DNA of 36,213 nt from an uncultured Spirochaetota bacterium. Lineage in GTDB: Bacteria; Spirochaetota; Spirochaetia; Treponematales; UBA12059. The translations under genes were made by a program, and so were the position numbers. Positions 24,343 to 29,998 of the stretch are shown in pieces. The stretch is taken from NCBI GenBank assembly GCA_937873275.1, contig CALMRC010000072.1, positions 1 to 36,213 of the forward strand, read 5' to 3'. The first letter of the stretch is position 1, and each line of letters starts with the position of its first letter. Under the pieces are notes generated by a model. The model did not search any database, had not been told where the DNA came from, and was given only the letters and a program-made list of their open reading frames with translations.

Positions 24343-25223
24343 ACCGCATCATCGCAAAGCGCCTCCTGTCGGAGGACGTGTACCGCATCGAGGTGGAGGC
24401 GCCCAACATCGCGCGGGAACGGAAGGCCGGGCAGTTCGTCATCGTCCAGGCCGACACGGAGTGGGGGGAGCGCATTCCCCTGACCATCGCGGACGCGGAT
24501 CCCGGGAAGGGATCCATCGCCCTGGTGTTCCAGGCCGTCGGGGCCTCCACGCATAAGCTGGCCCTCAAGGAGCCCGGGGACGCCATCGCCGTCCTGGGGC
24601 CCCTGGGGAATCCCACCCATATCGAGAAATTCGGCCACGCGGTCTGCGTGGGGGGCGGGATCGGGGTGGCCCCCCTCCATCCCATCGTCCAGGCCCTCAA
24701 GGCCGCGGGCAACCGCCTGACCGTGATCATCGGCGCCCGCACCAAGAGCCTCCTCATCATGGAGGAGGAGATGCGGGCCCTGGCGGACGACCTGATCGTC
24801 GTGACCGACGACGGCTCGTACGGCCGCAAGGCCCTGGTCACGGAGCCCCTCAAGGAGATCTGCTCCCGGGATCCGAAACCGGATCTGGCGGTCGCCATCG
24901 GGCCGCCCATCATGATGAAGTTCTGCGCCGAGACCACCCGGCCCTTCGGCGTCCACACGGTCGTGTCCCTGAACACGATCATGATCGACGGGACGGGCAT
25001 GTGCGGGGGCTGCCGGGTATCCGTGGGGGGCGAGACGAAATTCGTCTGCGTGGACGGTCCGGAGTTCGACGGCCACCAGGTGGACTTCGACCAGATGATG
25101 CGCCGCCTCCGGGCCTACAAGTCCATCGAGGACGCCGCCCACGAGAAGTGCCATCTGGAGATCGCGGCTGCCGGGCTGGCCGCCAAGCAGGCCGTCGAGG
25201 CCGGGAAGGGAGGCGCCCGATGA
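24339..25223 (+). CDS. nfnA: NfnA-type FAD/2Fe-2S subunit (SudB-like ferredoxin-NADP+ reductase)
   Basis: This 294-residue flavoprotein is the small subunit of NADH-dependent reduced ferredoxin:NADP+ oxidoreductase, or of the related sulfide dehydrogenase. It has a FAD-binding RIPLTI motif (45-50), the nucleotide-binding GGGIGVAP (105-112) and the 2Fe-2S ligand cysteines Cys222, Cys225 and Cys237 (with Asp217 close by) in the DGTGMCGGC region. The start is the ATG at 24339 inside the ATGA overlap with the chemoreceptor, preceded by GGAGAGG. The next gene also overlaps by ATGA. Bifurcating Nfn activity versus SudAB activity cannot be separated from sequence alone. Confidence 0.92.
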   Translation: MNRIIAKRLLSEDVYRIEVEAPNIARERKAGQFVIVQADTEWGERIPLTIADADPGKGSIALVFQAVGASTHKLALKEPGDAIAVLGPLGNPTHIEKFGHAVCVGGGIGVAPLHPIVQALKAAGNRLTVIIGARTKSLLIMEEEMRALADDLIVVTDDGSYGRKALVTEPLKEICSRDPKPDLAVAIGPPIMMKFCAETTRPFGVHTVVSLNTIMIDGTGMCGGCRVSVGGETKFVCVDGPEFDGHQVDFDQMMRRLRAYKSIEDAAHEKCHLEIAAAGLAAKQAVEAGKGGAR

Positions 25224-26710
25224 CCCGTACGAACGAGCAGCTGGCCTCCGAGGCCCGGGCCGTCTGGGCCGACATCTCGAGCCGGGAGCTCAAGCCCAGG
25301 GACCGTCTGGCCATCCCGGTCCAGGACATGCCCTGCCAGGACCCCGTGGAGCGGGGCCGGAACATGAACGAGGTGGCCCTGGGTTACACGGAGGAACAGG
25401 CCCGGGTGGAGGCCTCCCGGTGCATCCAGTGCAAGAACGCCCCCTGCATCGCCGGCTGTCCGGTGCGCATCGACATTCCGGGCTTCATCGGCAAGGTCCG
25501 GGACGGAGACTACGCCTCCGCCGCGGGGATCATCAAGAAGACCAACCTCCTGCCCTCCATCTGCGGCCGGGTCTGCCCCCAGGAAGTCCAGTGCCAGCTG
25601 CCCTGTACCCTGGGCAAGTCCCTGGGCGGGGTGGACAAGGCCGTTCAGATCGGGCGCCTGGAGCGCTTCGTCGCGGACTGGGAGGCCCGGGAGGGAAAGG
25701 CCCAGGCCCCCGAGATCGCCGCGGACACGGGCAAGCGGGTGGCGGTGATCGGTTCCGGGCCTGCGGGCCTGACGGTGGCCGCGGACGTGCGCCGGGCCGG
25801 CCACGGGGTGACCATCTTCGAGGCCTTCCAGAAACCCGGGGGCGTCATGGTCTACGGCATCCCGGAGTTCCGGCTGCCCAAGGCCATCGTCCAGTCCGAG
25901 GCCCGGGCCCTGGAGGCCCTGGGGGTCAAGTTCGAGCTGAACTTCCTGGTGGGCCGGACGCGCCCCCTCATGTCCCTGCTCTCCAAGGACGGGTTCGACG
26001 CCGCCTTCGTGGGCGTGGGGGCCGGGCTTCCCAAGTTCATGGAGATCCCCGGGGAGAACCTGGTGGGCGTGTTCAGCGCCAACGAGTACCTGACCCGGGC
26101 CAACCTGATGAAGGCCTACGACCGGAGCCGGGCCTACACCCCCATCTACCCGTCCCGCCGTGTCGCCGTCCTGGGAGGCGGCAACGTGGCCATGGACTCG
26201 GCCCGCATGGCCCTGCGTCTGGGGGCCGAGGAGGTCCGGGTTCTCTACCGCCGGACCCGGGAGGAGATGCCCGCCCGTGCCGAGGAGGTGGAGCACGCCA
26301 TGGAGGAGGGGATCCACTTCGACTTCCTCTCCAGTCCCGTGGAGGTCCTGGCGGATTCCGAGGGCAAGGCCGCGGGGCTCCGGGTCCAGGCCTACCGGTT
26401 GGGAGACCCGGATTCCTCCGGGCGACGGTCCCCGGTGGCCATCCCCGGGGCGATCACGGAAGTCCCCTTCGACACGGTGATCGTCGCCATCGGCAACGAG
26501 TCCAACCCCCTCCTGGCGCGCACGACCCCGGGCCTGGTGGTCGACAAGAAGGGCCGGGTCCTGGTGGACGAGGCGCAGAAGACCTCGGTGGACCGGATCT
26601 ACGCGGGAGGGGACATCGTCCTGGGCGCCGCCACGGTCATCCTTGCCATGGGGGAGGGCCGCAAGGCCGCCGCCTCGATCAACGGCATACTGTCGAACGG
26701 ACATAGTTGA
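25220..26710 (+). CDS. nfnB: NfnB-type large subunit (SudA/GltD-like, 4Fe-4S, FAD, NADPH)
   Basis: This 496-residue protein pairs with NfnA. Two 4Fe-4S motifs are visible at the N-terminus (Cys68/71/76/80 and Cys115/119/125/129), then a FAD-binding GSGPAG (178-183) and an NADP-binding GGGNVAMDSAR (319-329). The complex would couple NADH and reduced ferredoxin to NADPH formation by flavin-based electron bifurcation in the cytoplasm. Similar chains occur as glutamate synthase small subunit, but the adjacent NfnA partner favours Nfn/Sud. ATG at 25220 overlaps the NfnA TGA. Downstream comes a 124-bp hairpin element. Confidence 0.92.
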   Translation: MTRTNEQLASEARAVWADISSRELKPRDRLAIPVQDMPCQDPVERGRNMNEVALGYTEEQARVEASRCIQCKNAPCIAGCPVRIDIPGFIGKVRDGDYASAAGIIKKTNLLPSICGRVCPQEVQCQLPCTLGKSLGGVDKAVQIGRLERFVADWEAREGKAQAPEIAADTGKRVAVIGSGPAGLTVAADVRRAGHGVTIFEAFQKPGGVMVYGIPEFRLPKAIVQSEARALEALGVKFELNFLVGRTRPLMSLLSKDGFDAAFVGVGAGLPKFMEIPGENLVGVFSANEYLTRANLMKAYDRSRAYTPIYPSRRVAVLGGGNVAMDSARMALRLGAEEVRVLYRRTREEMPARAEEVEHAMEEGIHFDFLSSPVEVLADSEGKAAGLRVQAYRLGDPDSSGRRSPVAIPGAITEVPFDTVIVAIGNESNPLLARTTPGLVVDKKGRVLVDEAQKTSVDRIYAGGDIVLGAATVILAMGEGRKAAASINGILSNGHS

Positions 26711-26724
26711 TCCATGACCCGGGA

Positions 26725-26848
26725 ACCATAGATCCAACAAGATCTACAAGATGGATCAAGATGAACAGGATGGAGTATGGGGCCCGATCGTTCCATACTC
26801 ATCTTGTTCATCCATTTCCAATCCTGTTCATCTTGTTGGTTCTATGGT
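26725..26848. repeat. 124-bp imperfect palindrome (hairpin element A)
   Basis: Outer arms of 19 bp (26725-26743 with 26830-26848) pair with one mismatch. The innermost arms GAGTATGG/CCATACTC (26773-26780 with 26793-26800) pair perfectly around a 12-nt loop. The arms between are near-matching and rich in GATGAACAGGAT-like words. The element is AT-rich relative to its surroundings, non-coding, and lies 14 bases after the nfnB stop. It may serve as a terminator, or be a small non-autonomous repeat. Confidence 0.85.
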
Positions 26849-26858
26849 AGTCAGCGGC

Positions 26859-26888
26859 TTGTCGCGGCCGGGGCGTTTGGGGGATAAT
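26859..26888 (+). promoter_or_regulatory. Candidate promoter of the TPR gene
   Basis: TTGTCG (26859-26864), 18 bp and GATAAT (26883-26888). The start would be near 26895, 16 nt before the ATG, leaving room for GGAGG (26901-26905). The -35 is weak. Confidence 0.55.
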
Positions 26889-26910
26889 CGGGGTGAACCC
26901 GGAGGATCCC

Positions 26911-27687
26911 ATGCGTTCCAGAATCCGTCTCCCCGCCCTCGTCGTCCTGGCCTCCTGGGCGGCCGCCTCGTTCGCCCAGGATGCCGTGCCCGCTCCGTCC
27001 CCGGAGCCGACGGCTCCGGCGCCCTCGTCCCCCGCCTCTCCGGCCCCGGCCGTACCGCCGTCCTTCTCCCCGGCGCCCGCCCCCGTCCCGACCCGGGTGG
27101 ACGCCCTGGAGCTCTACCGGCGGGGCCGCAACCTGGAATCCGCGGGTCGTATGTCGGAAGCCCAGGGTCTCTACCGGGAGGCCGTCGCGGCCTGCGATCG
27201 GGAACTGGCGGCGGATCCCGCCCGCATGGACGCCTACGCCGTCAAATGCTGGTCCCTGTTCCGCCTGGACCGGTTCCGGGACGTGGTGGATACGGCTACC
27301 GCGGGACTGAAAGTCCGCTACGATCCCCGGCTTTCCGAGGTGATGGGAGAGGCGTATTTCCACCTGGGCAACAACGACCTGGCCCTGAAGAACCTGCAGA
27401 GGTACATCGAGAACGTCGGGGAGTTCGGGGACCGGGTCTCCACGGCCTACTTCTACATGGGCGAAATCTACCAACGCCTCAAGAAATTCGACCACGCGGA
27501 CATCGCCTACGCCCTGGCCCTGCACCGGGATCCTTCCATGTCCCGATGGTGGTTCCGGTACGGCCAGGCGGTGGAGGCCCTCGCGGACTACCGACGGGCC
27601 GCGGATCTTTACGCCCGGGCCCTGAAGCTCTCCCCGGAGATGAAGGAAGCCTCGGACGCCCTGGCCCGTGTCCGCTCCCGAATTTGA
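26911..27687 (+). CDS. Secreted TPR-repeat protein
   Basis: This 258-residue protein has a signal peptide (residues 1-22, cleavage at SFA-QD), a proline/alanine/serine linker (about 23-65), and then about five tetratricopeptide-like helical pairs, for example LYRRGRNLESAGRMSEAQGL and MGEIYQRLKKFDHADIAYAL. TPRs scaffold protein-protein contacts, here in the periplasm; the partner is unknown. The ATG at 26911 is chosen because GGAGG lies five bases upstream; a GTG start at 26893 would leave no Shine-Dalgarno. The gene stands alone between two non-coding repeat elements. Confidence 0.87.
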   Translation: MRSRIRLPALVVLASWAAASFAQDAVPAPSPEPTAPAPSSPASPAPAVPPSFSPAPAPVPTRVDALELYRRGRNLESAGRMSEAQGLYREAVAACDRELAADPARMDAYAVKCWSLFRLDRFRDVVDTATAGLKVRYDPRLSEVMGEAYFHLGNNDLALKNLQRYIENVGEFGDRVSTAYFYMGEIYQRLKKFDHADIAYALALHRDPSMSRWWFRYGQAVEALADYRRAADLYARALKLSPEMKEASDALARVRSRI

Positions 27688-27997
27688 GCAGAGTCTGCGC
27701 CTACGGTTCACCGGACAAACAAGGAAGGATCTGGTTTACGAGATCAACCACAGAGGCACAGAGAACACAGAGGAAGAACGAGAGAATCAGTAAAGATGAA
27801 CGATTTAGAATACAGATGATAACAGTATAATCCTGTTCTGAATCGGGCTTCTCTCCCGTCGTCCTTTTTTCTGCCTATCCGTCTATCCTTAATCGATCCT
27901 GTTCATCCTGTCTCTCTTAGGTTTTCCCTCTGTCTTCCTCTTTTCTTTTCTTTTTCTTCCTCTTCTCTCTGTGCCTCTGTGTCTCTGTGGCGCATTG
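27688..27997. repeat. Gene-free 310 bp with CACAGAG inverted-repeat element B (27748-27990)
   Basis: CCACAGAGGCACAGAGA (27748-27764) is the imperfect inverse of TCTCTGTGCCTCTGTG (27965-27980), and the right end finishes TCTCTGTGG at 27990. An internal hairpin (near GATTTAGAATACAG at 27802-27815 and CTGTTCTGAATC at 27833-27844) and a GATGAAC/ATCCTGTTCATC pair are also present. Positions 27907-27990 are almost pure pyrimidine on the plus strand. The right end is 8 bp from the priA stop. It shares GATGAACAGGAT-type words with element A. No coding frame of interest was seen. Confidence 0.8.
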
Positions 27998-29998
27998 TTA
28001 TAGCAAACTGACCGGATCGACATCCGTCTCCAGGCGGCAGTCCGGGGGCGGTACGAAGTCCCGGACCAGGCCCGACACGGACCGGTGCAGACCGCCCATG
28101 GTGGGCGCCCGCAGGACCACGTGGAGCCGGTAGGTGCCGGCCATGGAGGCGATGGGGCATTCCGCGGGCCCCAGGATCTCCGCGTCCGGCGGAAGGGTCC
28201 GGGCTGCGGCATCCGCGAAGGCCCGGGCTCCCTCCCAGGCCCGGTCGGCCTTCCGGGACCGGAATACCACCCGGATGATCCGGGAAAAGGGCGGAAAGCC
28301 CAGGTCCCGCCGGGCGGCCAGCTCGGTTTCGTAGAATCCCTCCACGTCCTGGGCCGCCGCGAAGCGCATCGTCGGGGATTCCGGGCGGAAGGTCTGGAGG
28401 ATGACCCGTCCGTCCGGGGAGAACCGACCGGCACGGCCCGCGACCTGGACGACCAGGGAGAAGGTCCGCTCCGCGGCCCGGAAGTCCGGGAGGTTCAGGG
28501 TCGTGTCCGCCAGGACGATGCCCACCAGCTTGACCCCCGGGAAATTGAGACCCTTCGCCACCATCTGGGTTCCCAGGAGGACGTCGATCCGCCCCTCCCG
28601 GAAGGAGTCCAGGATCCTATCCAGTTCCCCCTTCCGGGCCGCGGTGTCCGCGTCCAGCCGGGCCGAGGACAGGCCGGGAAACTTGGCGGCCAGTTCCTCC
28701 TCCACCCGCTCGGTGCCGAAGCCCGCCCATCCCACGTCCAGGGACCCGCACTCCGGGCAGGCCCGGGGGGGAGCCTCGGAATAGCCGCAGTAGTGGCACA
28801 GCAGGCGGTTCCGGTCCTTGTGGTAGGTGAGCCCCACGGAGCAGTGGCGGCACCGGATCTCGGCCCCGCAGGACCGGCAGCGGAAGAAGTAGGAGAAGCC
28901 CCGTCGGTTCAGGAAGAGGATGCTCTGGCCGCCCTCGGACTTCACCCGGGCCAGCTCCCCGGCGAGGCGGCGGGACAGGGCCCCCTCCTCGCCCCGCATG
29001 TCCACCACCTCCACCGCGGGGGGGGCTCCCCCCGCCAGCCGTCGGGTAAGGTCCCGCCGGGCCAGGGTCCCCTCGGACATGAGGTTCCAGGCTTCCGCGG
29101 AGGGAGTGGCGGATCCCAGGACCAGGCGGGCCTCCTCGTCGGAACAGCGCTTCATGGCCACCTGACGGGCGTGGTACCGTGGGGAGGAGCCGGACTTGTA
29201 GGAGCCCTCGTGCTCCTCGTCGATCACCACCAGGCCCAGGTTCGACACGGGGGCGAAGACCGCGCTCCGGGCTCCCACCACCACGTCGGCCTTGCCGGAG
29301 AGGATCCGGCGCCATTCCGAGAGGCGTCGGGAGGGGGACAGCCCCGAATGGAGGACCGCGCAGCGGTCCCCGAAGCGGCGGGATACGGCCTCCACGACCT
29401 GGCGGGTCAGGGCGATCTCGGGCACCAGGTAAAGGACGCCCCGACCCTCCCGGAGGGTGGCTTCCGCGGCCTGCAGGAAGACCTCGGTCTTGCCCGAGCC
29501 CGTCGTACCGTACAGGTAGGTCCGTCCGGATTTCCGGCCCAGGATGGCTTTCAAGGCCGCCTCCTGCTCGGGGGACAGGACCAGAGCCTCGTCGACCGGG
29601 GGATAGTCCTCGAAGGGGGCGGAGGCGTCCGAAGGTTCCCGGCGCGCGGTGGGAAGCATCGCCGAGAGGGCTTCCCCCCGGGAGCAGAGGTACATCCCCG
29701 CCAGCCAGGCGGCCAGCTCGAGGGTGCGGGATCCGAACAGGGGTTCCGGATCCAGGACCCGGAGGATGGTCTTGATCGACCCGGGATCCACGGACGGGGC
29801 GTCCCGGGACAAGGCGACCACCCAGCCCACGGCCTTCCGACGTCCCAGGGGCGCCTCCACGCGGCAGCCGACCGCGGCGGTCCGGTCGGGAGGAAGGCGG
29901 TACGTGAAGGCCTGGTCCACGGGAATGGGGAAGGCCACCTCGACGAAGGGCGCGGGCCCCGGGGCGGAGCTTTCCGGTACGGGGCTCTCGGGAATCAC
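27998..29998 (-). CDS. priA: Primosomal protein N' (replication restart helicase PriA)
   Basis: This 666-residue DEAH-like helicase reloads the replisome at stalled forks. It shows an N-terminal 3'-DNA-binding domain (VEVAFPIPVDQAFTYRLP), Walker A GTTGSGKT, Walker B IDEEHEGSYK and the zinc-binding cysteine cluster (CRSCGAEIRCRHC, then CHYCGY and CPECGS). A longer open reading continues upstream, but the GTG at 29998 is preferred because it overlaps the TGA of the uracil-DNA glycosylase gene (GTGA, 29995-29998) and gives the family length. The initial region (IPESPVPESS) is not conserved. It ends 8 bp before hairpin element B. Confidence 0.95.
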   Translation of the reverse strand: MIPESPVPESSAPGPAPFVEVAFPIPVDQAFTYRLPPDRTAAVGCRVEAPLGRRKAVGWVVALSRDAPSVDPGSIKTILRVLDPEPLFGSRTLELAAWLAGMYLCSRGEALSAMLPTARREPSDASAPFEDYPPVDEALVLSPEQEAALKAILGRKSGRTYLYGTTGSGKTEVFLQAAEATLREGRGVLYLVPEIALTRQVVEAVSRRFGDRCAVLHSGLSPSRRLSEWRRILSGKADVVVGARSAVFAPVSNLGLVVIDEEHEGSYKSGSSPRYHARQVAMKRCSDEEARLVLGSATPSAEAWNLMSEGTLARRDLTRRLAGGAPPAVEVVDMRGEEGALSRRLAGELARVKSEGGQSILFLNRRGFSYFFRCRSCGAEIRCRHCSVGLTYHKDRNRLLCHYCGYSEAPPRACPECGSLDVGWAGFGTERVEEELAAKFPGLSSARLDADTAARKGELDRILDSFREGRIDVLLGTQMVAKGLNFPGVKLVGIVLADTTLNLPDFRAAERTFSLVVQVAGRAGRFSPDGRVILQTFRPESPTMRFAAAQDVEGFYETELAARRDLGFPPFSRIIRVVFRSRKADRAWEGARAFADAAARTLPPDAEILGPAECPIASMAGTYRLHVVLRAPTMGGLHRSVSGLVRDFVPPPDCRLETDVDPVSLL

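Follow-up and report, generated by a model that had tools for sequence, protein, structure and literature searches.

Two AT-rich, non-coding elements, here called A and B, stand on either side of a TPR-repeat protein gene in a 36,213-nucleotide stretch of DNA from an uncultured Spirochaetota bacterium (the window), raising the question of whether they are related to each other, how far such elements are dispersed, and whether they are mobile. The composition described in an earlier note on this DNA was confirmed, the G+C content being 0.43 for A and 0.44 for B against 0.68 for the whole window. The TPR gene between them is located at 26911 to 27687 on the plus strand (Pfam TPR_2, E 5.9e-15), with an alternative GTG start possible at 26893.

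Elements A and B of the window

Element A (26725 to 26848) is an inverted repeat of 124 bp, a hairpin whose arms (ACCATAGATCC...) are heptamer arrays of the ACARGAT type, which starts 14 bp past the stop of the Fer4_20 / pyridine nucleotide-disulphide oxidoreductase gene (25220 to 26710, plus strand) and is flanked by two co-directional genes. Its DNA minimum-energy fold contains 47 pairs (94 of 124 nucleotides paired); the palindrome claimed before is thus present, its description as "near-perfect" being slightly strong. Element B (27748 to 27990; 243 bp) is situated between the TPR gene and the convergent gene for PriA helicase (27998 to 29998, minus strand), terminating 7 bp short of the priA 3' end. 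It is composed of an outer CACAGAG heptamer frame and degenerate A-type inner arms, the left outer arm (27748 to 27772, plus strand) reading CCACAGAG-G-CACAGAG-AA-CACAGAG and the right outer arm (27966 to 27990) reading CCACAGAG-A-CACAGAG-G-CACAGAG on the minus strand. The termini reported previously, CCACAGAG beginning at 27748 and CTCTGTGG ending at 27990, were found as described. The capacity to form long hairpins is in agreement with the folds of A as single-stranded DNA (z = -7.9) and of B as RNA (z = -5.4), each of which was equalled in stability by none of 200 shuffled sequences.

The word GATGAACAGGAT occurs as an exact match in the left arm of A (26760 to 26771, plus strand), and as its complement in the right arm of A (26821 to 26832, minus strand, also exact) and within B (27896 to 27907, minus strand); with up to two mismatches allowed, 14 matches were found in the window against 1.9 expected. 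The sharing of words claimed in the earlier note therefore holds for GATGAACAGGAT, with the limit that B contains only the complement. The two elements had been considered unrelated in appearance, but they are related, since both consist of heptamers with short spacers between them, and B includes a degenerate A-type inner arm. A known RNA family was not identified for either element, the Rfam search giving nothing above the gathering score (the best, SNORD69, reaching 23.5 of the required 37 bits, E 0.29). An open reading frame at 26751 to 27830 gives a spurious translation containing a TTEAQRTQRK-like peptide. Such peptides are common in databases, and heptamer repeats may account for these recurring spurious translations.

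Heptamer-ladder architecture

Each repeat unit combines a conserved heptamer, ACARGAT in the case of A and CACRGAG in that of B, with one or two variable nucleotides behind it, and other heptamer forms, including CGCAGAG, CACGAAG and further ones, were found elsewhere. An arm usually consists of two or three units in tandem, and two arms are arranged in inverted orientation. In the host genome, the A-arms follow the pattern ACARGAT-NN-ACARGAT... and the B-arms CACRGAG-N(N)-CACRGAG-N(N)-CACRGAG, many copies having an A module nested within a B frame. In some frames of the B type, the interior is another GC-rich hairpin (GCCGAAGC...GCTTCGGC) and not A, as observed at L049, L051, L052 and L054 of the host genome (G000) and at C7:233256-233359 of a genome of the same genus (G001).

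Between the arms of single elements, heptamer bases matched at 181 of 189 positions in G001, 220 of 231 in G000 and 938 of 959 in the cross-phylum set. Spacers of equal length matched between arms in 4 of 22, 4 of 18 and 52 of 103 cases, respectively, no more than in permutations, and the 56 two-nucleotide spacers of G001 show 13 of 16 possible dinucleotides. Spacer lengths agreed between arms in 84 of 85 cross-phylum pairs, but only in 12 of 16 in G001 and 14 of 20 in G000. Because heptamers match between arms, spacer sequences do not match beyond permutation, and spacer lengths agree in the cross-phylum set, the hairpin is a ladder in which 7-bp helices alternate with small mismatched steps or internal loops. 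In some copies, the arms continue as palindromes a few nucleotides into the flanks. Insertion into existing hairpin loops was suggested by this extension together with one empty site (L059), but does not hold in general. CsrA and Hfq binding motifs were dropped as candidates, as CACAGAG has no GGA and the period of 8 or 9 nucleotides breaks triplets.

Copies in the host genome and in the same genus

Alignment of A and B against the host genome (3.6 Mb in 200 contigs) gave, with self matches and matches on both strands counted, 31 and 56 matches, respectively (E <= 1). Identity was 68-100 % among non-self matches and mostly 70-90 % in the longer ones. Neither element is single-copy in its own genome, and the proposal that they belong to dispersed small repeats is borne out. 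The two-heptamer B pattern was detected in 26 of 58 relatives, the number of matches ranging from 0 to 242 within one family. The congener G002 contains 48 forward and 69 reverse matches; G065, from which L071 comes, has identical counts, and G002 thus appears to be the 'Treponema sp. AS27yjCOA_177' MAG.

A total of 26 clusters of at least four heptamers were identified in 1.27 Mb of G001, and none in the reversed sequence used as the control. With genes of G001 and the window called by a home-made gene caller, all 26 clusters were intergenic, 12 in convergent, 12 in co-directional and two in divergent gaps, while the 864 gaps include 136 convergent and 153 divergent ones.

The A locus is empty in G001, and in G002 it is occupied by other DNA instead of A. 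This DNA (L338, L339) carries the inverted ends GTTAGTGTTACGAAGCTTG/CAAGCTTCGTAACACTAA and is probably an insertion sequence broken by assembly. At the B site, a different hairpin is present in each of the three species (that of the window, G001 and G002). Among 34 clusters of the host genome with flanks, 23 rows (21 loci) were mapped to part of the G001 genome, of which three loci, including the A locus of the window, were empty in G001. Since most of the mapped sites are shared, several with swapped content, the elements are largely old residents within the genus of the window. At 11 chosen shared loci, 497 of 563 heptamer positions, 831 of 1070 other element positions and 2789 of 3226 flank positions were identical. 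The shared elements vary, some being conserved like the coding flanks or better and others swapped; intergenic elements at least as conserved between species as their coding flanks are exemplified by L034 against L266 of G001 and by L002 against C1:7571-7869 of G001. That some elements are conserved to this degree points to selection or gene conversion more than to simple parasitic DNA.

Distribution across phyla and position relative to genes

An 18-mer of B, AACCACAGAGGCACAGAG, was found in at least 117 stretches, against a chance expectation of about 7.5 in 257 Gb (arithmetic from 4^18). Among the 80 matches listed are isolates of Verrucomicrobium, Sorangium, Roseateles, Spirosoma, Bowmanella, Nostoc and Aquisphaera, and metagenome-assembled genomes of Spirochaetes, Acidobacteria, Chloroflexi, Calditrichaceae, Abditibacterium, Methanothrix and a Diapherotrites bin. 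A partner arm was located within 500 bp at 68 of 101 sites in these 80 loci, a count in which both arms of one element can be included. All 30 genomes counted from the listed loci were multicopy (4-491 pattern matches each), a set that is biased because every genome was chosen for containing a copy. The A-type array ACARGATNNACARGAT was present in 18 of 35 genomes from several phyla, with 61 matches in Verrucomicrobium, 41 in Calditrichaceae and 34 in Spirosoma (control, one at most per strand). From these matches, the hairpin family is far more widespread than the earlier note supposed. A 23-mer of B was found in 27 stretches of viral contigs; blastn gave no match for plasmid or phage carriage, a search in which the low-complexity filter may mask such a query.

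Some copies depart from the paired form. Cyanobacterial copies are often lone arms, and in Nostoc, Anabaena and Calothrix (L062, L077, L115, L119, L125), unlike most other phyla, single arms (AACCACAGAG...) lack a partner. The copies of Methanothrix (G077, L330-L333) show a reversed arm order, with CTCTGTG arrays outside-left and CACAGAG arrays outside-right surrounding a conserved core that contains a palindrome similar to GGTTATAACC, and appear to be a separate element of archaea. Such a heptamer array also turns up in a Bacteroides fragilis primer.

The neighbors of paired cross-phylum elements were oriented ++ in nine cases, +- in eight, -- in seven and -+ in one (25 elements at locus edges and one intragenic element left out), and those of paired elements on viral contigs ++ in six and -- in eight (four at edges). 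Paired elements with called neighbors therefore avoid divergent gaps in both sets. The median distance, G001 elements included, was 22 nucleotides to gene 3' ends (n=59) against 117 to 5' ends (n=41). No classical target-site duplication was recognized in 68 cross-phylum site readings (double counts included).

Insertion site in Roseateles

Comparison of empty sites, a check named in the earlier note, resolved one Roseateles copy against three empty sites, in addition to the A locus empty in G001. The element at L086 (G072) is missing at the same site in the genomes of three sister species, where gene 1 terminates with ...ENAGLLK*, gene 2 starts at the GTG within AAGTGA, and the two genes overlap stop and start as GTGA. 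In G072, the genes are separated by about 150 bp, both reading frames are intact, and TGAAGTG is present on either side. Different GC-rich repeats occupy this stop/start junction in G098 (L345) and G095 (L346), and from these genomes the junction appears to be a hot spot for small insertions.

A set of 20 Roseateles copies (L086 and 19 of the 20 fetched; L381 was without an anchor match) has the stop-side end AGTGAAACCTCAAAGGCAACC in common, and most of them also share the start-side end ...GGACAACTGA-N-start. In 19 of 20 copies, a stop codon is found 9-21 nucleotides ahead of the arm anchor, its frame being open throughout the fetched flank; in 17 of 20, the element is followed by a start codon whose frame is likewise open. 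The search for target duplication gave a divided result: no simple duplication was seen at the cross-phylum copies, but a TGA-containing direct repeat lies on both sides of many Roseateles copies. The proposal of non-autonomous mobile elements is supported by the presence or absence of A among congeners and by the three empty sites in Roseateles.

Search for a mobilizing enzyme

RAYT-family genes (PF01797) were detected in the host genome and in 20 of 20 Roseateles genomes, of which 14 carry the repeats and six do not. Repeats were found without PF01797 in G002 (117 pattern matches) and G006 (88), and G056 contains 21 PF01797 matches with no pattern match; G042 and G056, of the same order, have 28 and 21 PF01797 matches and almost no heptamer repeats. 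Among 63 Y1_Tnp loci examined, none had a tandem heptamer array nearby. RAYT was accordingly rejected as the mobilizer for the genomes tested, as PF01797 does not track the repeats. RVT_1 (PF00078) was absent from the carriers G000, G001, G002, G006, G015, G017 and G018, ruling out mobilization by reverse transcriptase (group II intron, retron or DGR) in these main carriers within the window's family. No autonomous copy or mobilizing gene was found; convergent solo arms far apart were rare, as judged from the arm positions. Copy number is very patchy among close relatives.

Nature of the repeats

With the dispersal, the architecture, the distribution across phyla, the location at 3' ends and the presence or absence between related species observed as described above, A and B are probably copies of a chromosomally dispersed, non-coding and non-autonomous family of mobile hairpins. 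Alternatively, the arrays could be binding sites of a host DNA-binding protein such as the nucleoid protein IHF or HU, the pairing being incidental. IHF and HU are widespread in bacteria, whereas the copy number ranges from 0 to 242 within one family; moreover, heptamer arms pair in register with spacer lengths in agreement in nearly all cross-phylum pairs. This interpretation is unlikely, even though heptamers are conserved while spacers vary, spacers are not complementary between arms beyond permutation, and binding sites were proposed for a similar repeat of Geobacter metallireducens in the account of its class 2 sites (PMC2700814). The proximity to gene 3' ends, the enrichment in convergent gaps (12 of 26 G001 clusters against 136 of 864 gaps) and the conservation of some elements would also fit RNA elements under selection at mRNA 3' ends, acting as an exonuclease roadblock or bidirectional terminator and not as mobile DNA. 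Since elements are missing from close relatives, the outer ends of the copies examined carry no constant U-tract, and sense-strand wobble pairs (53 against 42, summed over co-directional elements) indicate no clear preference, we consider this quite unlikely.

It is improbable that these are REP/REPIN-like repeats moved by a RAYT (HUH Y1) transposase: the palindromic form and the location at 3' ends and in convergent gaps resemble REPs as outlined in PMC3733652, and the host and all Roseateles genomes possess RAYT-family genes, but carriers lacking PF01797, PF01797-rich genomes lacking repeats (six Roseateles included) and the Y1_Tnp loci devoid of arrays argue against it. Replication slippage or template switching generating quasi-palindromes, or low-complexity chance, could be considered from the arms that run as palindromes into some flanks, but is hardly credible, because identical heptamers recur in unrelated phyla, the arms differ in spacers that are complementary no more than by chance, and reversed controls contain no heptamer cluster.

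For the mobile hairpin family, a trans-acting enzyme would recognize the heptamer arrays or the hairpin and move the element, and the direct repeat at the Roseateles sites may be a target-site duplication or a copy of the cleavage site. In Roseateles, the element is placed after a stop codon and ahead of the following start codon, and the one resolved insertion left both genes intact. The family may have spread horizontally. As a tentative and rather doubtful extension, we propose a trans-domain family of heptamer-ladder DNA moved by a class of enzyme not yet linked to such repeats, which would enter stop/start junctions of operons, the short target copy restoring the upstream stop and the downstream start, and could thereby spread through bacteria and archaea while doing little damage. 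Dispersed palindromes of small size are generally regarded as lineage-specific, yet here the same 7-letter words in the same arrangement occur in many phyla and archaea. Given these shared words, the tens to hundreds of sites per genome and the sharp on/off contrast between close relatives, what moves short non-coding repeats becomes a question that can be tested by comparing genomes with and without the repeats in genera that can be cultured, Roseateles for example.

Comparison with known repeat systems

The heptamer family is similar to REP, REPIN and BIME elements (PMC3733652; see also PMC3116915), which are short dispersed intergenic palindromes, mostly 3' of open reading frames, in several phyla, but is different with respect to the heptamer-ladder arms, the identical words across phyla and the lack of association with RAYT genes. 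A GTAG or CGTC tag at the palindrome foot was not constant among the copies listed (read by eye), the usual foot being AACC/GGTT or GGAACCATAG; in the window, GTAG is present after element A. As in MITEs, the elements are small, non-coding and multicopy, with terminal inverted repeats and presence or absence between relatives, but their build is nested and modular, no autonomous parent was found for them, and for most copies no target-site duplication was recognized. The TAACTGA heptamers of Beggiatoaceae, as summarized in PMC4679880, are likewise intergenic heptamer arrays common to distant lineages, but these are direct repeats, located for the most part immediately before start codons, and have a different sequence.

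In the open-access literature covered, the closest record of the heptamer family, and the only description found, was that of the class 2 "global regulator binding sites" of G. metallireducens (2009). According to the class 2 description in PMC2700814, three tandem TCTCCGTS[Y] repeats form multicopy sites that come in pairs, one on each strand and a variable distance apart; the sites were called "unique" to this genome, and binding of IHF or HU was put forward as a guess. By this motif description, the complement of TCTCCGTS[Y] is of the ACGGAG type (CACGGAG), paired and multicopy as in the present family; tandem TCTCCGTS[Y] in opposite-strand pairs is found in the CACGGAG arrays of G001 and G000, and B of the window is the CACAGAG variant. 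Beyond the class 2 account in PMC2700814, the present family is characterized by spread across phyla, nesting with ACARGAT arrays, siting at gene 3' ends and evidence of insertion.
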